DNA of 30,798 nucleotides, from positions 1 through 30,798 of IMG/VR virus record IMGVR_UViG_3300037087_000136, one strand, 5' to 3'. Under the pieces are notes generated by a model. That model searched no databases. It was not told the DNA's origin and saw only the letters and a program-made list of their open reading frames with translations. Source of the DNA: a virus. The position numbers were made by a program, and so were the translations under genes. Positions 5,870 through 26,875 of the stretch are shown piece by piece (positions within the stretch are counted from its first letter, which is position 1; every line of letters starts with the position of its first letter).

Positions 5870-8800
5870 CTATGCCGGTCCAAAGATTGCGTTTTGTATA
5901 CCGAGACTGAGGTCACTGCCGGAATACAACTCTTTCTTTATAGCACGGGCGAAATCTCCGGAGCGGGCCATCAGGTCCTTAGAGTCAATCGCGTGAACGG
6001 GCACGTTGACTGAGTAGTAGTTGTTGGTGCCGCCCACGCCAGACGTCGGAATTGCGCCGGGTGATACAGTTGAAGGCGAAGTCGCAGGGTAGTTACCAGG
6101 ACCATAGGTCGGATAATTTGGCGACTGACGCCCTGGTATCGTGTACCACTCCGGCACGTTCGGATTCGACCAAGTCTTGCTTGGAGTCTGCCCATACTGC
6201 GTCTGCTGCAGCGCCACGGGATATGCTGCGTAGGGTGTCGTGGCCGCCATTCCAGTGCGCGCTGAGTAAGCAAGCTGCATACCGTTCGTCGAACTCAGCA
6301 CGCTCGCCTGTGTGGGCGCGTTGAACTTCCACGAGGTCATGTAGTTGGCGATTTGTTCCTGGCGCTTTTGCGGAGAGTTGCCAACGAGTGCGGAGATGAG
6401 ATCAGTCGCACCAGCCGCGATGGCGAGACCAGCCGCTACAGCAAAACCTGCTGGCCCGAACATAGCTGCGATTCCGGCTCCAGTCATTAAGACGCCTGCG
6501 GCACCCGATAAGTCGCCCTTGGCTCCGCCATGCTTGAAACCAGAATAAGCTTGCATTGCGCCGCCGGCCGCCACCAACCCGTTGCCAAGCTGCTTGCCAT
6601 GTGTCCCAAGAAATCTGGCCGCTTGACCAAGAGCTCCTTGCGTAGCACCAATCGGACCTGAACCCGTCGAGCCTGGAGAACCACCGGTCACTGGGGCAGT
6701 ACTACCATCTGGATACTGTATAGGCGTCGACGTATCAGCTGGACTTTGTGGTATATCTGTACCTGGCCAATTTCCTACTGAGCCACCGACACCGGGAAGT
6801 GCTGAATAGGCCGTATTGTCGACGCTTCCACCGTCGCCACTACTGCTGCTAGTCCCGCTGTCGAACATGTACGCCGCCGGTGGGGTTCCGCCAACCTTTC
6901 CGGCTTGCATTATCTGGCCAAGGAAACCACCAAGCATTGGGAGGGCCGTATACATGCTGCTCGGACTACTAGTAGGGACGATATCACCGTAGCTTATCGA
7001 AGAGGATACCCGAGCCTGTGGGCTAACGCCCATAATGCTGTTCCCGCTCGCTGCCCCGCCCGTCTGCAGCATTCTACCGAGGAACCCGCCGTTGCTGAGG
7101 ATGCTCCCGCTGTTGCTGAAGATGTTACCAACACCCGCAGCGACACTACCAACAGCAGACATTCCCAGCCAATTAAGCAGGCGTCTAAGGTCAGTATCAA
7201 GGGCCTTAGTATCAGTATCTAAAGCGTCGAGAGACTTCTTCGTCGCATCCAGCTCCGTGGTAGCGTCATTGAGGGAGGCCTGTCCCTTCTGCTCAGCTAT
7301 CTTCCTCTCGCCGGCGGCGGTCTTCTCCATCGCCGCAATTTCATCGAGGTGTTTATCCTCGAGGTGCGTGCCACCAACAATGCGGCCGAGCCAGTTTGGG
7401 TGACCCTGTGGACCCTGAGGCAGAACCACGCGGATGATCTTATCGAGGGTGGGACCAGTTAACTTCCATACCTCTGCGGCGATGTTACCACCAATCTGCT
7501 TGGCAGTGTCGCGCATCATAGTGATGCCGAGGTCCTTCAGCTGGTGCGTCTTGTTGTACGACCGCCGCGTGACGATGTCGATTACGTCGCCAGCGGCTCC
7601 GCGCACAGACTGAGCGTCTTCCTGCTGGCGAGCGAGCATAGTCTGAAGGTACGCCGCGTTGGCCTGGCGCTTCTGCTCAGCAGCTTCTTGCTTCACATCT
7701 TCATTGGTCCCACTAGCATCTCGCGCCTTCGCTTCCTTGTCGATGTACTTTAGACGCTCCTGATAGTTGTTGTAGTCGGCAGCGGCAGACTCTGCCGTGG
7801 TGACGGCCTTCAGCTGCGCGATCTTCGACAACTCGTCGTATTCGCTGCCGTAGAGAGTGATGAGTCTGCGCTCCTGCACCTCGCGGAAGTTCGCAGCCTC
7901 CTTGACCTTATCGAGAGCTTGCTGGACGTCGATCTGCTTTAACTTGGCATTAGTCGCCTTACCGACTGAGTCTAAGCGGCTGCCCCAAGTTTCGCTGCTA
8001 GCTGTATCTGGTAGCATGCCAATCTGAACTATGGCGCCCTGTCGCACGTTGGTGCGTGCCGACGCACTCTGCATAGCGATCCCCATCAGGGCGCGCGTGT
8101 GGTCTGACACGCCTCGCATCGCCAGACCGCTAGCATCCGCTCTAGCAGATACTCCGGAGGTAAAGACATCCAGGCCGGCGGACGCTGCATCTCGAATCTG
8201 GTCTTCGGCATACTGACGCTGGCTATCCAGAAATTGCTCGTTCAACTTCTGAGTAGCATCAATCCTATCTTTTTCAGCAGGAAGCGTATTGATGAAGGCC
8301 AGCCGCGCGTCGTAAGCCCCCTGTAGTCCTGCGGCCCCGCTTTGACCAGGCGCGCTCATAGCGAGTCTAGCCATCTGCTCGGAGGCAAAGCTGCCAGCGC
8401 TCATGAGGGCACTATAGCGGGCTTGATTCCTTGCAGTTAGGGGGCTGGTAATCGCGTCTGACCTATACTTCGCGGCAGCCGCCGACGATTCAGCCTGTAG
8501 TTCCTCGTCCGTGCTAAGTCCCATGCCCTCCGACCGAACGCGAAAATTCTTCTGCGCACCGGCCATCGTGTAGTAGTACTCCATCATGGCCATGTTGCTC
8601 TGCTCTTGGTCAGAGTTAGTGACCGCCAGGGGGCGTAGTTGGTCGATTGCAGAACTGACTCGTATGCTGGTCAACTTCTGCAGACCCTGACGGCGCAACG
8701 ACTCCTTCGCGAGGGCGAGTTCTTCGCGGCGATTTTCCCTCGTGCCCTTAAAGCCCTTAAGTTTATCCTCAAATATCGTGCGCATCTCGCCTATGGTTCC

Positions 8801-11800
8801 GGTCGTAGGTATTCCGGTAGCCGCCATGTCACGGACGAACTGCACCAACGTAGGATTAAACGCGCCCTTGTTCTTATCTGTTTGAGGTGTGATTACGTCG
8901 GCGGCTTTAAGCGTATCCCAGTCTCCAGGCTTAACAATGTCAAGAGCTTTCTTCATTAGCCCTTGCCCCTGCGTTTCGGCGTCGTCAATCTGCGCCATGT
9001 CAATATTATAGCTAGATATGAGGTTCTCGAGTGGCGCGCCGGGGAGGCGCATCGCCCTCTTAGTGGCGCCGCTCGTCATGGGGTTGTACTTCTCTTCCAA
9101 GGCGACGGCGGTCTGCTGCGCCTGCTGAAATACTGACGCAAAGATAGCAGCGTCTCTGGCGGACGCATTCACCAAGCCCAGGTTTTCATTGGGGTTCTGC
9201 CGGTAGCTGGCACTGGCAGCGAGCTCAGCACTGCGCGAGACGATGTCCTGTTGAGAGAATACACCACCAGTTTTTACAGCCATATCTTGCACGTCAGACA
9301 ACGAACCCTGCCGCGCTAGGTCGCCGACACCTCCCCACAAGGGTCCTCGCAGGATAGCCCAAGCTCCAGTGAACGCGGACGCTGCGCGCCTCTGCCAAGA
9401 CGCTCCGGGGGCAAAGCCACGACGGAAGCCAGCAGCTGCGTCTTTGCGACGGTTGTAATCTTCCGCTATGCTGTCTAATTGGTCTCGTCTTGATTCACGC
9501 TCATTCGCGGCGTAACCAAGGGCATTTTGGCCCTCGACTGTGTGCTGGTCAACGCCACCTACCAGTTTGCCACCGCGAGATTCCCAAACGCGGCCATTCT
9601 GCACTACTACAGACCCTTCGGTCAACGTTGTTTTTCCACCAGAAGCTGCCCCCATTATTGAGCGTCGCTCGCTGGCCATCCTCGCGATTTGCTCATTACC
9701 GACTGACATCGTCGCCTTGGTGCGGTCCTGTGAAAGAAGAGCGTACGCCCCACCGCTCACTAAAGCCGCAGCCCCAACAGTAAGAGCGACTGGAGGAGCC
9801 ACTCCCAGCATAAGGCCGCCTAGCTGCAGTGTAGCCGCCGTGCCGAGGCCAGCTCCCGCGGCCGTCAGTCCCGAGATGGCGTCAGCCGAACCCTCGGGGT
9901 GCTCACGAATATAGGAAAGGCCACCGCGTGCCATCTGCATGACTCGCGACATCACTGGTAAGTACTGCCTACCGAGGACGTTCTTCGTTTCCTGAACTTC
10001 CTTGCCCAAGTAGGCGTACTGGCCGCCGGCCGTCAGCATCGACCGCTCATAGGTGCCCGAGAACTTCGCGTCCTCCGACATGATGCGATCGACCATCGCG
10101 TTGCGTATCTCTGAGGGGGTGGGTTCACCCTTCTGGCCGGCGGCCTTCCTCTTAATGCGCAGGTCGTGCATGACCTGCGCCGATGTTACCTGCAGCCCCA
10201 TCATGTGGAGCTGGCGCGTGTACCCGGTAACGACGGCCGACATGAGGCGTTGAATCGTCTCCATCGCGTCCGAACCAGAAACAGCCGCGAGGTCTTGGGC
10301 GACGTGGACCAGGCCAGTCGACTTGCTCAAGTCGACCTGCACCATCATCAACTTCTGAACGACGCTGTGCGCTGCCTGCGTCGTGATGTTGAGGTTCTTC
10401 AACGAGGAAACTTGCTCGTCTACCTTGTCAGTGCTGAGCCCCGCAGCCTCTGCCATGCGCCGAGTGGCGAACTCCATCATCTGGGTGCGAGCGGCGTAGA
10501 CGGCGGAATCCTTGATGATGTTCCTTAGTTCAGAATCTACTCCGGCGAGGGCTGCAGCTGACATGCCCCAGCCATACATGCTTTGCATGCTGCCGCCGCC
10601 ACCTCTACTACCGGTGAACAGGGAGGCGAGCACTCCACGACGACCCCCGCCGCCACCTCCTGCGCCGCCCTCTGCTGCGATCGCCGCCTTCTTAAGGTAG
10701 TCTGACTTAAGTCCGACTTTCTGCTGCTCCGTCGTACTCTTCAACCGACCTAACTTCTCTTCGGCTGCGGTCCGCTTCTCCCATGCTGCGGCCTGCTGCT
10801 CATCTCGTTTGGCGTTGATAGCTGCTTGCTTAACATTGAAGTCCGCGCCGAGGCGACCCTCCGCCCGAGCCTTCTCCTGGGCCGGAGTCATACCGCTCAG
10901 CACGCCATAGTTGAGCAGCTGGGATCTATAAGCTTGAGCCTCACCGGGGCGTGCCCGCCCGCTGATGAAGCGAGCTTCCACCAATCTGTCTGCGTACACA
11001 CCCTGAAGCTTAGAGACCTCCTCGGGGTCGATCAGTCCTGCTGACCGATAGGCATAATCGGCGCGGATGGCACGCAGGCGCGCCTTAACCGGCATGTTCT
11101 GGAGCACAGCCTCCTGCACTTTGTACTGCCTAATGGGATCTTTTATCTTCTTATAACCCTTACTCGTGTACAGCCGAGCGAGGGTCGCATCTTCTGCCAG
11201 TTGTAGCGATTCCTCTGCGTCGAATGCCTTCTTGCCCAAATTTCCGTACGTAGTGTTGTAACGACTCTGTATGTCAGCCCCGCGCCTAGTTCTCCAAAGA
11301 TCGAGGCCTGTCGACCGTACCCCTAGCGCGCTCTCCTGGCGAGCGCGAGTGGTTGGAATCGTTGAGTCGCGAAGCTTCTCAAAACTCTGCGTGGCTTGGT
11401 CAAGCGTGCTGGCCAACTTCGCCAACTTACGATCCAGGGCGGCCTTGCCGATGGAACCTCGCAGGGTAGTTGCTTCTGGCAGCACAAAGTTAGGATCAGC
11501 CGCCATAGCGTCGTAGTCAACGCCTCCGCCGGTAACATTGTGCCGGGAACCAAACCATGAACGGATCCTACTACCGATGCCGCTGAGTGGGTTCAAGAAA
11601 TCGTAGGGAGCAGAACCGCGCTGACTTCCCGTACCGGCGCCAAACCTGCTGCGCATCCGCGAGGCAAAGCTAGGGTATGCCTCAGATGCTGATGTGTCAG
11701 ACATCGCTCCTACGGTAGATGCCGCCAGCAAGCGACCCTGCTTCTGCTTGTAGCTAGCGAGACGACTCGCCTCCATGATACGGGTCAGGGGTGTGTATAG

Positions 11801-13600
11801 CGCGCTACTCTCACCTACCTGAGCGGCCATTTGCGCGGCCTGAACATGGAGACCAGGTCCAGTGTTACTGCGGTTGGCCTTGATGAAGTCGCGTATTGCG
11901 TCGCTGTCTGCTTGCGGACCTGTCCCGCCGCGAGTGAACCAACCGACGTGCCTGTTCATTTCGGCACGCTTCTGCCACTTATTGCTCTGTGCCTCAGTAG
12001 TACCAAGCCACCGATTACTGCGCGACCACGTACTAGTAGTTACGTCGGCACCCCACTCAGGCTGCGCCCGCCACAGGTTAGCCTGCTGGTTGACGAGGTC
12101 CATCGCCTCCAGGTGCATGTCCTGCCCACCGCGCGCCAGCTTACCACTTCGGTTGCCGTGCTCCAAGCCACGGCTGTCTATTAGCGTACTGGCATGGCGG
12201 TACGCATCATACAACTTATCTGGCGGCAAAAGGTAGGCGTTACGGATGAACCTCTCCGCTACGCGCTTCTGGCGGTCCAGACCGAGGATTGTCTTATCGG
12301 GAAGATCACCAGGTGTCGCCTCTGCCGGCGTATTGCTGAACGTATGCCCGAGACCCTGCCACTCATAGCCGTACTCAGGGCGTTTGCCTCCTGACATTAG
12401 GCGCTTGCCGCGCACCAGAGCGTTTGACGCTTGATATCGCGTTGACTCCCTAAGCTGCCCCATTGCGGAGTTGCGGTAGTCCCAGGCAGATTCGACGGCT
12501 GGGGCCATCAGGGCTGCTAACGCATACTTCGAGGCAAACTGGCCTTGTGCCTGCCGCACATCACGCTTGATGATTTTGGAGTAGATGTCATTGTTTGGAG
12601 TATCAGCTGGTGGTTCAGGATACCGCCTACCCAGCATCATCCCGAGATAGTTCGGCCCGGCGCCTTGATTGTCGGGGTGCGTCGAGAAGAGCAGGTGGTT
12701 CAGCTGATAGAGCGAACGTTCAGAGTTGGTGAAGCCAGAAGGCTGCATGTTGTGCGCGCGAGCGAGGCCAGCCACCTTCCTGGTATTGAAGCCAAGAACG
12801 TCCCAAGGCAGCGAACCTACGTCGAACTGCGGCAGGCGCGATACTGCTGCGCCTGGAGGTCGCGCTGAATGGGGGGCAATCTTGGAGATGTCTGCCGCTA
12901 GTTGGCTGACGTTGCGTCCGACCATGATGTCGGACATCTCAGCTAGGCGGCGTAGAGGCGCCCCGGCAATACCTGAGACGTGGCTGGCGGCGGCCGTAGT
13001 CCGCCACGACCCGGTATCACGCGGCGCGCGCTCCTGCCCGGAGTACGCGCCAACTATGCGCCTCGCCTGTCCCGTTGCGCGATCTACCTCGACCACGGCC
13101 GCACTCATGTGTGAGACTTGGCCGTTTATCTTCTTGGTCGCAACAGTAAAGACGTTGAACGTCTTGCCGATGTTGTCGAAGGCCAGGCGCACGTCTGTCG
13201 CGGCCTTGTTCATCAGTTTTGCAACCTGTGTGGCCTGAGCTTGAAAGGCATTGGCCATCGCCGGGTTGACCATGCCGCCGCTCATCTGGTCGCGGCGCGT
13301 GACGACAGACTGCGCGATCTGTGAAAGGCGCTCTGTGGGGTGGCGGGCTATCTGCTTGCGAACGTGCTCAATGATGGGCCTGATGCTAGTGGCACCGGTA
13401 CGCGCGGCCAAGCTGCCGAGAGCGTCGTCCGCCTGTCCGAGTTGCTCACTGATTTGTCTGGAAGAATAGCCGCGTGTGAAGGCCTTCCGTATTAGGCTGT
13501 AGAAGCGGGCGTCAGTCTTCGCCAGGGTAAAGTTCAGGCTCTCCCCCGACTCACTTGCATTTTTCGTTAACTTAAGGACGTCCTCTACGATTTGGGCCAT
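5870..13600 (-). CDS. Tape measure protein
   Basis: 2576 aa, the largest gene, between the tail chaperone locus and the distal tail genes, which is diagnostic for the tape measure. It scaffolds tail tube polymerisation and sets tail length, then is thought to exit ahead of DNA. The sequence is mostly Ala/Gln/Glu/Lys-rich helix. Near residues 973-1004 is a Gly-rich linker (GGAGGGGGGRRG and SRGGGG). It is followed by a tape-measure-type core (AQDLAAVSGSDAMETIQRLM, then GYTRQLHMMGLQVTSAQV). Hydrophobic stretches lie near 1243-1288 (PPVALTVGAAALVSGGAYAL) and 2362-2407 (FGPAGFAVAAGLAIAAGAT), typical membrane-active segments. The C-terminus (NNYYSVNVPVHAIDSKDLM) matches the usual tape measure tail. 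Start: ATG preceded by GGAGACGGAAG. The start overlaps the chaperone extension by 29 bases. No peptidase or lytic motif was recognised. Confidence 0.95.
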   Translation of the reverse strand: MAQIVEDVLKLTKNASESGESLNFTLAKTDARFYSLIRKAFTRGYSSRQISEQLGQADDALGSLAARTGATSIRPIIEHVRKQIARHPTERLSQIAQSVVTRRDQMSGGMVNPAMANAFQAQATQVAKLMNKAATDVRLAFDNIGKTFNVFTVATKKINGQVSHMSAAVVEVDRATGQARRIVGAYSGQERAPRDTGSWRTTAAASHVSGIAGAPLRRLAEMSDIMVGRNVSQLAADISKIAPHSARPPGAAVSRLPQFDVGSLPWDVLGFNTRKVAGLARAHNMQPSGFTNSERSLYQLNHLLFSTHPDNQGAGPNYLGMMLGRRYPEPPADTPNNDIYSKIIKRDVRQAQGQFASKYALAALMAPAVESAWDYRNSAMGQLRESTRYQASNALVRGKRLMSGGKRPEYGYEWQGLGHTFSNTPAEATPGDLPDKTILGLDRQKRVAERFIRNAYLLPPDKLYDAYRHASTLIDSRGLEHGNRSGKLARGGQDMHLEAMDLVNQQANLWRAQPEWGADVTTSTWSRSNRWLGTTEAQSNKWQKRAEMNRHVGWFTRGGTGPQADSDAIRDFIKANRSNTGPGLHVQAAQMAAQVGESSALYTPLTRIMEASRLASYKQKQGRLLAASTVGAMSDTSASEAYPSFASRMRSRFGAGTGSQRGSAPYDFLNPLSGIGSRIRSWFGSRHNVTGGGVDYDAMAADPNFVLPEATTLRGSIGKAALDRKLAKLASTLDQATQSFEKLRDSTIPTTRARQESALGVRSTGLDLWRTRRGADIQSRYNTTYGNLGKKAFDAEESLQLAEDATLARLYTSKGYKKIKDPIRQYKVQEAVLQNMPVKARLRAIRADYAYRSAGLIDPEEVSKLQGVYADRLVEARFISGRARPGEAQAYRSQLLNYGVLSGMTPAQEKARAEGRLGADFNVKQAAINAKRDEQQAAAWEKRTAAEEKLGRLKSTTEQQKVGLKSDYLKKAAIAAEGGAGGGGGGRRGVLASLFTGSRGGGGSMQSMYGWGMSAAALAGVDSELRNIIKDSAVYAARTQMMEFATRRMAEAAGLSTDKVDEQVSSLKNLNITTQAAHSVVQKLMMVQVDLSKSTGLVHVAQDLAAVSGSDAMETIQRLMSAVVTGYTRQLHMMGLQVTSAQVMHDLRIKRKAAGQKGEPTPSEIRNAMVDRIMSEDAKFSGTYERSMLTAGGQYAYLGKEVQETKNVLGRQYLPVMSRVMQMARGGLSYIREHPEGSADAISGLTAAGAGLGTAATLQLGGLMLGVAPPVALTVGAAALVSGGAYALLSQDRTKATMSVGNEQIARMASERRSIMGAASGGKTTLTEGSVVVQNGRVWESRGGKLVGGVDQHTVEGQNALGYAANERESRRDQLDSIAEDYNRRKDAAAGFRRGFAPGASWQRRAASAFTGAWAILRGPLWGGVGDLARQGSLSDVQDMAVKTGGVFSQQDIVSRSAELAASASYRQNPNENLGLVNASARDAAIFASVFQQAQQTAVALEEKYNPMTSGATKRAMRLPGAPLENLISSYNIDMAQIDDAETQGQGLMKKALDIVKPGDWDTLKAADVITPQTDKNKGAFNPTLVQFVRDMAATGIPTTGTIGEMRTIFEDKLKGFKGTRENRREELALAKESLRRQGLQKLTSIRVSSAIDQLRPLAVTNSDQEQSNMAMMEYYYTMAGAQKNFRVRSEGMGLSTDEELQAESSAAAAKYRSDAITSPLTARNQARYSALMSAGSFASEQMARLAMSAPGQSGAAGLQGAYDARLAFINTLPAEKDRIDATQKLNEQFLDSQRQYAEDQIRDAASAGLDVFTSGVSARADASGLAMRGVSDHTRALMGIAMQSASARTNVRQGAIVQIGMLPDTASSETWGSRLDSVGKATNAKLKQIDVQQALDKVKEAANFREVQERRLITLYGSEYDELSKIAQLKAVTTAESAAADYNNYQERLKYIDKEAKARDASGTNEDVKQEAAEQKRQANAAYLQTMLARQQEDAQSVRGAAGDVIDIVTRRSYNKTHQLKDLGITMMRDTAKQIGGNIAAEVWKLTGPTLDKIIRVVLPQGPQGHPNWLGRIVGGTHLEDKHLDEIAAMEKTAAGERKIAEQKGQASLNDATTELDATKKSLDALDTDTKALDTDLRRLLNWLGMSAVGSVAAGVGNIFSNSGSILSNGGFLGRMLQTGGAASGNSIMGVSPQARVSSSISYGDIVPTSSPSSMYTALPMLGGFLGQIMQAGKVGGTPPAAYMFDSGTSSSSGDGGSVDNTAYSALPGVGGSVGNWPGTDIPQSPADTSTPIQYPDGSTAPVTGGSPGSTGSGPIGATQGALGQAARFLGTHGKQLGNGLVAAGGAMQAYSGFKHGGAKGDLSGAAGVLMTGAGIAAMFGPAGFAVAAGLAIAAGATDLISALVGNSPQKRQEQIANYMTSWKFNAPTQASVLSSTNGMQLAYSARTGMAATTPYAAYPVALQQTQYGQTPSKTWSNPNVPEWYTIPGRQSPNYPTYGPGNYPATSPSTVSPGAIPTSGVGGTNNYYSVNVPVHAIDSKDLMARSGDFARAIKKELYSGSDLSLGIQNAIFGPA

Positions 13601-13967
13601 CTTCCGTCTCCATTATTTTGTCAGCTAGGAGTTTTTCCTCAGACATGAGGACGAAGGCGTCCACTACTTTGGCCGGCCACTTAGACATATCGCCGCCGTA
13701 AGGCGATGCGCCAAATTGCGCCATCACTGACGCACGGGCGAAAAAGTCAACCAGCCCAGTGGACTGGACTGATATCAATGATACAGGGCACTCGTTCGAC
13801 GCGGTGCCGAATATTAAACGGGAGGTCCCGCCCTTGGTGGTATACTTCGCTTCCCAAGATGCGGGGCGCCCCTCGTCGACTAGTTGAGCAAAGAACTTCC
13901 GGCAGTTGCGTCCTCGCCAGAGGCCTTTTTTCGGCAGATGCCGCAGTTGAAGAGCTCGGAGGTCCAT
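13572..13967 (-). CDS. Tail assembly chaperone, frameshift-made C-terminal extension (gpT-like)
   Basis: This frame is open from an ATG at 13967, but that ATG lacks a convincing ribosome site. The frame is more likely entered by frameshift, joining at 13925 and adding 117 residues to the upstream product. The extension starts GLWRGRNCRKFFAQLVDEGR and ends EDGPNRRGRP, overlapping the tape measure start by 29 bases. Position between tail tube and tape measure is that of lambda G/GT, where a longer fusion product bridges tube subunits to the tape measure. Entry is possible by -1 from the intermediate frame at the A_AAA_AAG site (13925-13931), or by +1/-2 straight from the upstream frame at the same A6 run. 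With start 14484 the double-shift product is 304 aa; with start 14418 it is 282 aa. I recognise no domain beyond the context. Confidence 0.65.
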   Translation of the reverse strand: MDLRALQLRHLPKKGLWRGRNCRKFFAQLVDEGRPASWEAKYTTKGGTSRLIFGTASNECPVSLISVQSTGLVDFFARASVMAQFGASPYGGDMSKWPAKVVDAFVLMSEEKLLADKIMETEDGPNRRGRP

Positions 13968-14484
13968 CCGCCACCACGCCAGAAGTGGTAGGCGATTCGG
14001 AGTTTTTTCTTTCGGCGCCGTCCAATTCGGCTTCCACCTGAATCGCGCGGTAGATCTCCTTGAATAGGGCGGACGGCCACTTCTTCCAGTCGTCCTTGGT
14101 CAAGGGGATGTCGTTTTCACTCACCAGGCCTTCGAGCGACTTCAGGCCCCACTGAATCCAGGTCGGCTGAATCTCATCGAGCTGAAGTGCGTCCAGCTTC
14201 GTGTTCAGGCCAACCCACTTCGCCATGTCGCGAACGTCTTCAGCCACCTGCGATAGGGCTTGCAGCTCCTGAAACAGGTCACGCTCGCGTGAGGCTACCT
14301 CAGCGAGGGCGGCACGCAGATCAGAGCGTCGGCCCTCCGTCATCTTGAAGAGGTGAGCCACCACTCCGGGGCACACTTCTGACTCGAACTTTCTTGACGT
14401 AATAAACTTATAAGCCATTCCCGAACCGCTCTTCTTTCTGCACCCATAGGCGCCACTGCATCTAATACGATTGATTCGGGCCAT
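13747..14484 (-). CDS. Tail assembly chaperone (gpG-like), zero frame
   Basis: 245 aa from ATG 14484, or 223 aa from the in-frame ATG at 14418 (MAYKFITSRK). Neither has a strong Shine-Dalgarno; 14484 leaves only a 16-base gap to the tail tube gene, 14418 leaves 82. Residues about 23-160 (numbered from 14484) are convincingly protein-like: MTEGRRSDLRAALAEVASRE, then a helical part with TWIQWGLKSLEGL and PSALFKEIYRAIQVEAEL. After the A_AAA_AAC heptamer at 14002-14008 the frame becomes Ser/Thr/Pro-rich and then arginine-rich and shadow-like, down to a stop at 13747, while other frames look coded. Location directly after the tail tube and before the tape measure gives the chaperone assignment. 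The short form probably coats the tape measure during assembly, as known for lambda gpG. Whether the product ending at 13747 is really used is uncertain. Confidence 0.7.
   Translation of the reverse strand: MARINRIRCSGAYGCRKKSGSGMAYKFITSRKFESEVCPGVVAHLFKMTEGRRSDLRAALAEVASRERDLFQELQALSQVAEDVRDMAKWVGLNTKLDALQLDEIQPTWIQWGLKSLEGLVSENDIPLTKDDWKKWPSALFKEIYRAIQVEAELDGAERKNSESPTTSGVVADGPPSSSTAASAEKRPLARTQLPEVLCSTSRRGAPRILGSEVYHQGRDLPFNIRHRVERVPCIIDISPVHWAG
13925..13931 (-). other. Candidate -1 slippery heptamer 2 (A_AAA_AAG)
   Basis: Minus-strand AAAAAAG, read in the intermediate frame as CGA-AAA-AAG, is the same heptamer as the efficient E. coli dnaX site. A -1 slip enters the frame ending at 13572. 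In the zero frame the same run reads GAA-AAA-AGG, so a +1 slip of the AAA tRNA before an AGG codon would also reach that frame directly. Only a weak 4-bp stem (CCTC/GAGG) follows. Confidence 0.6.
13971..13991 (-). other. RNA hairpin downstream of slippery site 1
   Basis: On the minus strand CTACCAC pairs with GTGGTGG around a 7-nt loop TTCTGGC (7 bp including one G-U). It begins 10 nt after the first slippery heptamer, where frameshift stimulators usually sit. No Shine-Dalgarno-like stimulator is evident upstream. Confidence 0.45.
14002..14008 (-). other. Candidate -1 slippery heptamer 1 (A_AAA_AAC)
   Basis: Minus-strand AAAAAAC read in the zero frame as AGA-AAA-AAC, an exact X_XXY_YYZ heptamer. 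A -1 slip moves ribosomes into a frame that stays open to a TAG at 13880 and reads LRIAYHFWRGGGWTSELFNC. A 7-bp hairpin starts 10 nt downstream, a spacing common for stimulators. Shift efficiency cannot be judged from sequence. Confidence 0.6.
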
Positions 14485-14500: not shown

Positions 14501-15790
14501 TTACGCGATGACCATCGAGAACTCATCCTTGACTGCCAGCGTCGTCGCCGTGGCCACGCTGTCGCCGAACCCCACGTCGAAGCTGATCTGACCATCGCCA
14601 AGAGCGTGCGACGCCAGGTACACGTTCTTCACGATGAACACGAACGTGCTCCCGACGGCCGTGCCAATGTTCATCACCATGTCGATCGGCGTCTTGCTGT
14701 CTCCCCACGCCTTCAGCTGCGTGACCTGAGTGGAGTCGTCGTCGTACACGTTGAAGGTCGCGGAGACCGTGCGAACGTCACCTTCGGTAGACGTACCGTA
14801 GTAGCTGCCGAACGTATCCCTCTTGATGACGTTACCGGTTGCGATCGTGATCGTTGCTCCTCGAACGCCCGTGAACGTCGAGGCGCCAGTCGAGAAGGTC
14901 GCGGCCGTCGTCGAACCGACTGACTGCCCGGCCGTGAACCGGCCAGTAAAGCCTGGGATGATCGACCCGTTGGTGACTGGCGCTGCGGGCTCCGTCGGGA
15001 AGGCGGTCAAGCCGCCCTTCTGGTAGGCATCGCTGTTGGCGAAGTCCGCACTCCGCAGAGTCCAGAGACCCTCGCCGCTCGCCGTAAACGTTGCTACGTC
15101 CTGATTCAACGAGAAGGTGGCGTTGGCGGTGATGCAGCTGTGTGCGACCCGCTGGTCGAGGGTGGATGGGCTGCGGAAGGACCATAGCGTGAACTGCGAA
15201 ACGGTGTCGATGAAGCTGTACGTCAACTTTACGCGGCTGACCACGCCACCCGAACCGGCGCTGCTACCAGTACCGTCCGACCCGACTAAAGTCAGTGACG
15301 TTCCGCCGCCAGCATAGGCCAGCCATACGCCGTTGGCGTTCAAGTTTGTCAGGTGGCCAGAAACCGCCACAACTTCAAATGAAGAAGTAGTAATGCCGTG
15401 AGCCGCAGTAGCTAACACGATTGGGGCGGCGGCCGTCGAACTCGTGATTGCAGCCGTCCCAGCGCCAACAGCCGCAGTTTGGCCAAAGATCGAAGAGAAG
15501 ATTGGGTCAGCATCCGGCGGTGTACCCGCCGTCCCGTTGGAGACCATGGATAGGTCGATGTTCCACGTACAGCCCTTGCGCCCAACGCCGACGCCCTCCC
15601 TCGATCGCGTGCCGGTCTTATCAGGACGCTCGAGAAGACCGACAGCATTCGAAAGTTCCATTCGGATGAAGCGGCACGCGTTGGCGTTTCCCACTGTGGC
15701 GGTGCCGCTCACATTGGGTATCGTCCCAAACACAGGCTGCGCCTGAACGTACGCCCGCTCTAGGCGCGAAAATGAAGCATTAGCACTCAT
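14501..15790 (-). CDS. Major tail (tube) protein with inserted beta domain
   Basis: 429 aa. ATG 15790 follows GGGGAGAG, which overlaps the previous stop codon. The order (terminator candidate, tube, chaperone with frameshift, tape measure) and the Ser/Thr/Gly-rich beta sequence fit the polymerising tube subunit that surrounds the DNA channel. The N-terminus (residues 1-100, MSANASFSRLERAYVQAQPV) and C-terminus (about 200-429, with VSATFNVYDDDSTQ and TPIDMVMNIGTAVGSTFVFI) look like the tube fold. In between, near 107-190, is a repeat-like insert containing HGITTSSFEVVAVSGHLTNL. That resembles the short HG(I/L)TTGD...VSG...NG modules common in phage tail proteins (FCCH-like beta domains). At about 430 aa the protein is long for a tube subunit, and the insert accounts for part of this. 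It could decorate the tube surface, which is inference. Confidence 0.85.
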   Translation of the reverse strand: MSANASFSRLERAYVQAQPVFGTIPNVSGTATVGNANACRFIRMELSNAVGLLERPDKTGTRSREGVGVGRKGCTWNIDLSMVSNGTAGTPPDADPIFSSIFGQTAAVGAGTAAITSSTAAAPIVLATAAHGITTSSFEVVAVSGHLTNLNANGVWLAYAGGGTSLTLVGSDGTGSSAGSGGVVSRVKLTYSFIDTVSQFTLWSFRSPSTLDQRVAHSCITANATFSLNQDVATFTASGEGLWTLRSADFANSDAYQKGGLTAFPTEPAAPVTNGSIIPGFTGRFTAGQSVGSTTAATFSTGASTFTGVRGATITIATGNVIKRDTFGSYYGTSTEGDVRTVSATFNVYDDDSTQVTQLKAWGDSKTPIDMVMNIGTAVGSTFVFIVKNVYLASHALGDGQISFDVGFGDSVATATTLAVKDEFSMVIA

Positions 15791-15791
15791 G

Positions 15792-16316
15792 TTATCTCTC
15801 CCCGGCGGCTATGGCCGCATTTACAGGAAAACCACCTTTGAGGGCGGCCACCACCTTCTCACACTCTGTCTGCGCATCGTTCAACTTCGACTCAAACGAG
15901 GCTGATGGAAAGATGCGTTCGCCGAATGGTCCGTAGTCCGACAACTCTTTCTGCGTGAAGCCAACCTTCTGAAACTTTGATTCTACAACGAATTTTCCGC
16001 CGCCAAGCAGCACGTCACGGAAGATGCTCTCCGGAAATGTCGCGCGTTGCCCAACGGTGTCAAACTCGACGTCTCCCACGACGGAACACCCGCTACCAAC
16101 AAAGCGACACGCAATCACAGAGACCAATCCTCCTATCGCGATTGTATCTCGCGAATATATCTCGGGGCCAACGATGTTGCCTTCCAGAGACGCTATCCCT
16201 GCTGAACTTGAAATAACATCGAGAAGGCTATCTTCTGTATGAAGTTCAAGCCACCCATCCGCAGTGGTCCGCGCTTCCCACGTATTTGACCATTGTACAT
16301 GATGCCGGGAGACCAC
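15792..16316 (-). CDS. Hypothetical protein in neck/tail module
   Basis: Up to 174 aa if started at the GTG at 16316, which overlaps the upstream gene by 124 bases and has no clear ribosome site. A better-supported start may be the GTG at 16118 (residue 67), about 10 nt after AGGAGG, giving 108 aa. CTG or ATT starts nearer 16195 cannot be excluded. The part downstream of 16193 is clearly coded: FVGSGCSVVGDVEFDTVGQR, then GGGKFVVESKFQKVGFTQKE, and a helical C-terminus (SKLNDAQTECEKVVAALKGG). I do not recognise the family. Its slot between tail terminator candidate and tail tube suggests a tail completion or tube-associated role, but that rests on position only. Confidence 0.6.
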   Translation of the reverse strand: MVSRHHVQWSNTWEARTTADGWLELHTEDSLLDVISSSAGIASLEGNIVGPEIYSRDTIAIGGLVSVIACRFVGSGCSVVGDVEFDTVGQRATFPESIFRDVLLGGGKFVVESKFQKVGFTQKELSDYGPFGERIFPSASFESKLNDAQTECEKVVAALKGGFPVNAAIAAGER

Positions 16317-16720
16317 ACCTGGTTCGTCGCTCGGTTTATCACGTCAATGACCGTCGACTCAAAACAATTGAGGTACGACTCAAAGCTATGCACCCCGCCG
16401 CGCTGGCTCCAGGACATATTTACCTCAAGGACGCAGTGCACGTCGCCAGCAAATTTTCTAAATTTCTCAGTGTTGCTGTTGAGACTCTCCAGTACGTACA
16501 ACACCAGCATGGGATAGCAGAATACCCCGGTCTTCTGCATATCCTCTGGATCCAATTGCCCAAGAAAGAAGTTCTTAGACGTAACCAGCCAATCAATTTG
16601 GCCAAATGGGGGCAACCCCATGGTGGAGGCAACCTGCGCCAGCGTGGCGTTGAAGCCGTCTGCAGCCGCCAGCTTGCTTAGTACGTCATCTTCAATAGTT
16701 TGCGACGGTGAGACTATCAT
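16193..16720 (-). CDS. Tail terminator / tail completion protein candidate
   Basis: 175 aa from ATG 16720, chosen because AGAGGTAAAGTC precedes it and overlaps the upstream stop. A longer frame to 16855 would run 130 bases into the neighbour. The protein starts MIVSPSQTIEDDVLSKLAAA. The centre is mixed (SFESYLNCFESTVIDVINRA) and the C-terminal half carries MYNGQIRGKRGPLRMGGLNF followed by FSMLFQVQ, a pattern I associate with tail terminator proteins that cap the tube and join it to the head. It sits between head-side genes and the tail tube gene, which is where terminators map. The family match is from memory of motif style, so a different neck protein is possible. Confidence 0.6.
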   Translation of the reverse strand: MIVSPSQTIEDDVLSKLAAADGFNATLAQVASTMGLPPFGQIDWLVTSKNFFLGQLDPEDMQKTGVFCYPMLVLYVLESLNSNTEKFRKFAGDVHCVLEVNMSWSQRGGVHSFESYLNCFESTVIDVINRATNQVWSPGIMYNGQIRGKRGPLRMGGLNFIQKIAFSMLFQVQQG

Positions 16721-16724
16721 GACT

Positions 16725-17438
16725 TTACCTCTCTGCCGCCAACCACCAGTGCTGACAGCCGTACCCGCCACCACCCTGGTGAAAAATTGCCGGAGCAGGA
16801 GATGGTCCTCCGACAATATGAGCACAAGCATCTCTCGTTGTGTCGGGACCGACATAGTAGTGCGGAGCCCTGATATGTGTAGAAGAGTGCATAGCAGAAA
16901 GTACGCGAGTCAACCCGAAAAATTGATCGCGCACTGTCGTCAACCTCAGCTGCTGATTGAATGAGGTATGCACGCCATCAATAAAGTCGCCAAAGCGAGG
17001 CGCACTAGTCGCTGACATAATAGCCCTTGAGGCGTCGAGCTTTAACTTCTCGACGAACAGGTTGACTTCGTCACCAGCAGACATAACGCGAGCCAGAGCC
17101 GGTCCCTTCCAAAAAGATGAATCAACAGGTAATCCTGCAGCCGCCACAATCTTCGCCACGTAGTCTATGACAATAGTCATGTCGAACATTAAGGTAGTCG
17201 GCATAGCCTCGCTGGCCAATGCTCCTGCCACGCGCCTCGTCACTGTAGCAAGTAGGGCTGTATTATGCCGCGTCTGTGCGACACGACCTTGGCGTATCAC
17301 CAAGCTCGACAGAAATGCAACGGCGTCTGCTTGAATCTGCTCAGTTGTGACGCTAACACGTGTGACGAAGTTCTCAGATAGAACTGTGAGTTCTTCCCTA
17401 TGCGCGACTATGGCTGCGGCCACATTGTCGGGAAGCAC
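16725..17438 (-). CDS. MuF-like minor head protein
   Basis: 237 aa from a GTG at 17438 that shares one base with the upstream TAG. AGAGGTCC lies just before. Residues 1-180 are mainly helical with no clear signature. The C-terminus has the pattern of MuF-related head morphogenesis proteins: YYVGPDTTRDAC at 194-205, then GGGGYGCQHWW at 222-232, matching the D-x-x-T-R-x-x-C ... G-G-Y-x-C-x-H-x-W layout seen near the neck of many siphophages. Such proteins are minor capsid components needed for head assembly, and some are ejected with DNA. Here the gene is well separated from the portal, whereas MuF genes often follow the portal, so the assignment rests on the C-terminal motif. Confidence 0.6.
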   Translation of the reverse strand: MLPDNVAAAIVAHREELTVLSENFVTRVSVTTEQIQADAVAFLSSLVIRQGRVAQTRHNTALLATVTRRVAGALASEAMPTTLMFDMTIVIDYVAKIVAAAGLPVDSSFWKGPALARVMSAGDEVNLFVEKLKLDASRAIMSATSAPRFGDFIDGVHTSFNQQLRLTTVRDQFFGLTRVLSAMHSSTHIRAPHYYVGPDTTRDACAHIVGGPSPAPAIFHQGGGGYGCQHWWLAAER

Positions 17439-25192: not shown

Positions 25193-26875
25193 CTACATCA
25201 CTATTCCCTTACGTCCGCCGCCCTGCATCCTCAGCGAGAAGGTGTACTCAACCATGTAGCCGAGCGCGTCGCTGATGTGCGTGCGGTGCTTGTCCTTGCC
25301 CTTTTCCAACAGACCCGTTGAGTTGCCGCCAGAGTCTGTGGCCCAACTCACCTTCTTAAAGTCCTTCACCAACTCAGGACACAGCTGCCTTTGTACGAAC
25401 AGGCGCATCGTTCCGTCGGCAGCCTTCAGGCAGTTGTTGACGGCGTTGACGCGGTCCATGATACGTGGGTTCGCGCGCCTTCGAATGAATCGGGCGTGCA
25501 GCGTGCGATCGAGGTTGAGGTGCTCGGCTACGATCTGCCAGTTGGTCTTGGCGCTGTTCGGTGAACGCTGCGAGCCGGCCGAATCGCCGTATATCTCGAT
25601 GTCGAGCGTATAGCCCCGCTTATACTTCTGAAGGGCGCCCATTGGCCCGATTAGGTGAAACATCATGTCGGGCGTGTTGCTATTCGGCAGCGCCAACTCC
25701 TCCAGAATCTCGCAGCGCTCCAGGATGCGCGGACCGACGCCTCGCTCGTACTGCCCAATGACCGCGCACATCGGGTCAACGTTGAAATCCATCGAAATGA
25801 ACAGCTGCATGCGGTCGTCGCGAGTGAGATCCCTAACGGTCTTCGTCTCGTCAAACTGGTGGTAGACGTTGCCCTCGTCGGCTTCGTCACCTGGACGCTG
25901 CTGAAAGAGGGCGAACCAATCTCGCTGTGAAAGGCTGCGAAACTTCGCTAAGTCGTCTTCAGTATAGCGGTCAGGACATAGTGCTTCACCGCGCCGCCGC
26001 CCGATGAAGTCACGCCACTGGTCAGAACCTTCGCGCCTTAACATTGCGCGCGTCGCAGCTAGATCGAGTGCACCCAGACGCAACTCGTTGACTGGAACGC
26101 CGTAGCTCCTATAGTGAACCTCAGCCTCAGGTTCCGCCAGTGCAGGAAAACAGAACACCTCCCAACCCTCTACCTGAGCCTTAGCGTCGCCTTCGGCCTT
26201 CTTCTTCAGATTTTCCTTCTCGCACTGCAGAATGCGGCCAGTGAGATCGTCCGAATGCCAACGAGTTCCAATCATAAGCATAGAACCGCCGGGCTCCATG
26301 CGAGATCTTACTGTCGAGGTATACCACTCCCAAGTCTTTTCCCGAATCGTAGGCGAATTCGCCTCTTCTGCATTTTTAATTACGTCGTCGAGGATCAGGA
26401 GGTTGGCTCCCTTACCAGTGATGGGGCCTCCTGCGCCAGCGCAAGTCATACCTCCACCGGCGGTAGTTTCCCAGCGATGAGCGGCCGGCATCTTGACCTT
26501 ATGCTGCACCGTCAGAAGATCTTTATTGTCGATGAGGATGTCTCGAACCTTGGCGCCCCACGTCGTGGCGAAGTCCATCTCGTACGATGAAAGAATTATG
26601 CGATTCTGAGGAAATAGTTCTGTGTACCAGGCGGGAAACCACTTTGAGCCGGTCTCACTTTTCGAATGACGCGGAGGCATCACCACTATCAGGCGCTTAA
26701 TGCGCCCAACAGCTAAGTCAACCAACTTGCGTGATAGGAGTTGCAGATACGGCCAAGTGCGATACTGCCCACCTGAAAGTCGAACGGCGAATGAGGCCGG
26801 CGTCATCTTCCAAAGAAGACTGGCAAATGCCGGATCCTGCAGCTGCATCTCCGTAACTGGACCGATTGGCCCCAT
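25193..26875 (-). CDS. terL: Terminase large subunit
   Basis: 560 aa. The ATPase half has a non-canonical Walker A at 65-74 (VMPPRHSKSE), a Walker B at 158-164 (NLLILDD) and the coupling motif LMIGTRWHSDD at about 200-210. The RNase-H-like nuclease half shows the metal ligands Asp363 (SMDFNVDP), Asp431 (YGDSAG) and Asp536 (ISDALGY). All active-site elements appear intact and the length is normal. The protein threads DNA into the procapsid through the portal using ATP and cuts concatemers. The start ATG 26875 comes 3 bases after the upstream stop. The next gene begins at once with a stop-embedded ribosome site. This is the most secure assignment in the window. Confidence 0.96.
   Translation of the reverse strand: MGPIGPVTEMQLQDPAFASLLWKMTPASFAVRLSGGQYRTWPYLQLLSRKLVDLAVGRIKRLIVVMPPRHSKSETGSKWFPAWYTELFPQNRIILSSYEMDFATTWGAKVRDILIDNKDLLTVQHKVKMPAAHRWETTAGGGMTCAGAGGPITGKGANLLILDDVIKNAEEANSPTIREKTWEWYTSTVRSRMEPGGSMLMIGTRWHSDDLTGRILQCEKENLKKKAEGDAKAQVEGWEVFCFPALAEPEAEVHYRSYGVPVNELRLGALDLAATRAMLRREGSDQWRDFIGRRRGEALCPDRYTEDDLAKFRSLSQRDWFALFQQRPGDEADEGNVYHQFDETKTVRDLTRDDRMQLFISMDFNVDPMCAVIGQYERGVGPRILERCEILEELALPNSNTPDMMFHLIGPMGALQKYKRGYTLDIEIYGDSAGSQRSPNSAKTNWQIVAEHLNLDRTLHARFIRRRANPRIMDRVNAVNNCLKAADGTMRLFVQRQLCPELVKDFKKVSWATDSGGNSTGLLEKGKDKHRTHISDALGYMVEYTFSLRMQGGGRKGIVM

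Follow-up and report, generated by a model that had tools for sequence, protein, structure and literature searches.

A G/G-T tail assembly chaperone locus with one conserved -1 frameshift site and a probable one-base deficit in its T domain

We analyzed a 30,798-nucleotide stretch of viral DNA (IMG/VR record IMGVR_UViG_3300037087_000136, positions 1 to 30,798; hereafter the window), in which a sequence-only reading had proposed that two successive -1 frameshifts at a tail chaperone locus yield three functional nested products. The locus is a tail assembly chaperone pair of the G/G-T type with one conserved site for a -1 shift, of the ordinary kind. We give a probability of about 90% to the reading that a single conserved G/G-T shift at the first slippery site is accompanied by a one-base deficit at the second, for which an error in sequencing or assembly is the likeliest source and a recent deletion a less likely one.

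The G/G-T locus and its relatives

The locus lies on the minus strand between the upstream tail tube gene (14501..15790; named from its position) and the downstream tape measure gene (5870..13600), both also on the minus strand. The same gene order was found in L002-L005. The tail tube protein is 63-65% identical to those of L002-L006, and the tape measure protein is homologous to the products of the relatives' genes at the same place. This position, together with the G/G-T layout of the relatives, bore out the assignment of the locus to tail assembly chaperones, and the three open frames described by the sequence-only reading are indeed there. Frame A, the zero frame, is open to 13747 (245 amino acids counted from 14484) and encodes a G-like domain up to the slippery site (14005..14418); alignment with relatives makes ATG at 14418 a more likely start than 14484. 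Site 1, A_AAA_AAC (14002..14008), is a canonical X_XXY_YYZ heptamer, present in register with frame A as claimed, and would lead by a -1 shift into the T frame, while frame A beyond it forms the G tail (13748..13999). Frame B (13880..14001, ending with TAG at 13882-13880) carries the 5' part of the T domain, with homology to T only as far as approximately 13925. The 3' part lies in frame C (13572..13931), which overlaps the tape measure start at 13600 and ends with TAA at 13574-13572.

To collect relatives, we used the tail tube protein (14501-15790) as a query, which returned five contigs with full-length matches at 63-65% identity, and then an alignment of G-T fusions, which returned further loci. 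In total, 15 distinct sequences were gathered, from 18 loci in IMG/VR and one in a Bryobacteraceae metagenome-assembled genome (MAG). Neither G nor the frame C protein of the window retrieved any match from viral contigs, and G-T retrieved none from GenBank phages. The T-domain relative within the Bryobacteraceae MAG (L039) hints that the hosts of this phage group are acidobacterial. Two mobile-element features were seen among the relatives: the large terminase subunit of one (L018:1495-4203) harbours a LAGLIDADG-domain intein (Pfam Intein_splicing and LAGLIDADG_3), unlike the window's own terminase (25193-26875), which has no intein, and L005:7313-8047 is a GIY-YIG/NUMOD3 homing-endonuclease-like open reading frame between the tail tube gene and G, with a GIY-YIG score just under the Pfam cut-off.

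All 15 distinct relatives have a zero-frame G followed, at the position of site 1, by an open T frame in -1. T is a single stop-free frame of approximately 135-160 codons in every one of them, and it opens with (K)-(L/F/I)-x-(I/V/L)-(A/S)-Y-H-(F/W). A canonical in-register heptamer is present at the G-T junction in 13 of the 15, namely A_AAA_AAC (n = 6), A_AAT_TTA (n = 3), A_AAT_TTC (n = 2), A_AAA_AAA (n = 1) and G_GGA_AAC (n = 1). L038 (3390-3396) and L039 (471-477) lack a canonical heptamer and have a G-rich junction, cagggggaatcc; a -1 shift there, if used, would fall on a non-canonical G run. The heptamers themselves occur in the window at chance level (AAAAAAC, 2 observed vs 1.43 expected; AAAAAAG, 2 vs 1.72), and the presence of one is weak evidence by itself, since a stretch this long is expected to contain one or two. 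It is in being conserved among the relatives that site 1 exceeds chance. The hairpin noticed after site 1 does exist (predicted -20.2 kcal/mol) but is no better than those of shuffled sequences (z = -1.03), and the folds predicted at this place vary among relatives. An Rfam search gave no matches.

The -1 G/G-T organization is the lambda-type layout (PMC5009743). The window's family resembles lambda gpG/gpGT in lying between the tail tube and tape measure genes, in its short zero-frame G, in the -1 slip late in G that opens a T overlapping the G tail, and in its character as a diverse but conserved family. It differs in that its sequences matched no family in PHROGs or Pfam and in the conserved CxxC...C...CP cluster of its T domain. 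On this model, most ribosomes would produce G from frame A, a minority would slip by -1 at A_AAA_AAC (14008-14002) to produce G-T, and the native T domain would be one open frame corresponding to frames B and C of the window.

The G domain is 25-48% identical to those of 10 relatives. Its AlphaFold model (pLDDT 84.6) gave one strong fold match, to an uncharacterized Caudovirales protein (E = 5.7e-08), along with several weak fold matches to proteins named tail assembly chaperone; a PDB fold search with this model gave no significant match. Sequence searches of PHROGs, Pfam and PDB found no family above cut-off. We discarded a weak, sub-threshold TFIIS match (E = 0.083) and a T-domain structure model of too poor quality (pLDDT 56).

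The break in T at the second A run

Between the two sites it is frame B that codes, as had been proposed. By our recount, 18 of 22 third positions are G or C in frame B and 11 of 23 in frame A, the same direction as the counts given earlier (19/24 and 11/24). BLOSUM62 scores against L021, L022 and L023 were 97, 93 and 83 for frame B, 40, 36 and 51 for frame A, and 37, 26 and 37 for the third frame. After the second site, coding passes to frame C, again in line with the sequence-only reading: frame C is 47% identical to T of L021 and L004 across 119 codons with no stops, and its substitutions relative to L021 by codon position number 46, 38 and 77. The Cys cluster predicted across the junction of frames B and C is conserved in the relatives, where it lies in one frame.

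The change of frame coincides with site 2, A_AAA_AAG (13925..13931, minus strand), whose register with frame B we confirmed. In tblastn searches, the T proteins of 10 relatives matched the window in two pieces, in frame -3 and then in frame -2; the 5' pieces stopped at 13928-13910 and the 3' pieces started at 13976-13910, the frame -2 matches beginning at 13931 or slightly upstream in most cases. Over 170 nucleotides, the window and L021 share 108 identities when one base near the A run is skipped, compared with 81 when none is, and the best-fitting skipped base in comparisons with L021, L022 and L023 falls at or adjoining the A run of site 2. None of the 15 distinct relatives has an A run or an in-register heptamer at this position (examples are AAACGGAAGGGG and AAGAAGCGCGGATGG), and in 15 out of 15 the sequence that the window divides between frames B and C reads as one frame, with no distinct third frame. 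Five relatives (L022, L023, L025, L026 and L036) carry T_TTC_CCA in the T register approximately 113-119 nucleotides after site 1, encoding Phe-Pro; it is probably a codon coincidence, since T stays open.

A second oddity of the window lies in G. In the relatives, the zero frame runs on for 18-40 Ser/Thr/Pro/Ala-rich codons past the IAYH reference point, with a stop at 39-40 in most, compared with 82 codons in the window. Adding one A would make T gaplessly collinear with its relatives across the junction and would place the G stop 38 codons past the reference point. A single-base deficit would therefore explain the split T and the long G tail together. The frame break at 13931-13925 is thus most likely, from these alignments, a one-base deficit in the A run, and we infer that the missing base is an A, with site 2 most likely an A7 Lys-Lys run minus one base.

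The A run would encode a conserved Lys/Arg-rich stretch that follows the CxxC motif. To judge from CKRKG, CKKRG and CKRRG in the relatives, the native codons might be CGA AAA AAA GGC (Arg-Lys-Lys-Gly). Loss of any A from this sequence would give CGA AAA AAG GCC, which contains an in-register A_AAA_AAG at which a -1 slip would restore the frame. Because an A7 run that loses an A would create this heptamer automatically, the register of site 2 is not independent evidence for a programmed shift.

T is the only split gene within approximately 21 kb of matched sequence. We also rejected two other possibilities: frame breaks are not unusually common across the window, none having been found outside T, and the overlapping genes at 15792-17438 are not split genes, since each is matched in one frame by the relatives' open reading frames.

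Sequencing error, recent deletion or second shift

We infer that the deficit is artefactual rather than real. In contigs assembled from Illumina metagenomes at 10x coverage, approximately 1% of proteins contain a single-base error associated with a homopolymer (PMC3277595). With approximately 30 genes, approximately 0.3 such errors would therefore be expected in the window at the Illumina rate. A survey of prokaryotic genomes took singleton frameshifts validated by homology to be sequencing errors (PMC3711429). Searching for the exact sequence around site 2 turned up no second record. The error reading has to contend with the unbroken state of the other matched genes, which speaks against a generally poor sequence. 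Seven A in a row, which the sequence-only reading had named as refuting its own proposal, is close to what the relatives point to, in that they indicate a one-base deficit.

A real, recent deletion in an A7 run is unlikely, though it is the best placed of the alternatives. T would then be made through a corrective second -1 slip at A_AAA_AAG, through transcriptional slippage, or not at all. A6 is the assembly as given, and frame C is intact and still constrained, so there has been no long decay and an old inactivating mutation is correspondingly less likely. In Escherichia coli, few -1 sites are as shift-prone as A_AAA_AAG (PMC5009743), and a real deletion could therefore be partly rescued, a point that counts against the error reading. 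Corrective slippage on A runs is known from insect endosymbionts (PMC5009743); Buchnera and Blochmannia offer a model for tolerating a real A-run deletion, although they rely on transcriptional slippage at long poly(A) tracts, as the known transcriptional cases do, whereas the window has A6 in a phage genome. Against a real deletion, the G tail is also abnormal (82 codons vs 18-40), full-length G-T would require two successive slips, the deletion is present in no relative, and we saw no stimulator after site 2, where no hairpin stood out from shuffled sequences (z = 0.09). We consider it very improbable that A6 is real in the phage population and that a second -1 slip is used for full-length G-T, which would make the locus a recently acquired two-step relay.

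Slightly less probable still is a programmed relay of two -1 shifts with three functional nested products, the proposal of the sequence-only reading, which was not borne out. In its favour, each heptamer is in register, homology to T extends over frames B and C alike, and successive -1 shifts are known from MMTV and HTLV (PMC5009743), so that the accompanying statement that known systems use one shift was incomplete. Taken at face value, the window would be of the same two-step kind as gag-pro-pol of MMTV and HTLV, but there the double shift makes GagPro and GagProPol, whereas here the arrangement is found in one sequence only and is missing from the 15 relatives, all of which read B and C as a single frame and lack a slippery sequence at the place of site 2. 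The register carries no weight, as any A7 in the same phase that loses an A gives a frame-restoring A_AAA_AAG, and the end of the truncated frame B product has no homology. E. coli dnaX has the same heptamer as site 2, but it is a different gene with a naturally used programmed site, whereas site 2 has no counterpart A run or heptamer in the 15 relatives and no notable predicted hairpin.

Coding in frame A between the sites followed by a single +1 or -2 (Mu-like) shift at site 2 can be dismissed with near certainty: the window's frame A does stay open across site 2 and such a slip on the A run would reach frame C, but the homologues contradict this arrangement, which the sequence-only reading had named as its other refuting case, given the low BLOSUM62 scores of frame A and the relatives' T, which begins at site 1 while their frame A stops 18-40 codons on.

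A double-frameshift relay can thus be mimicked when an A run lacks a single base, since the loss itself makes an in-register slippery site. The analysis also adds an uncharacterized G/G-T tail chaperone family, found in IMG/VR contigs and with one relative in a Bryobacteraceae MAG. The family, whose T domain is Cys-rich and whose slippery heptamers are interchangeable, should help to annotate phages without a database match at this locus.
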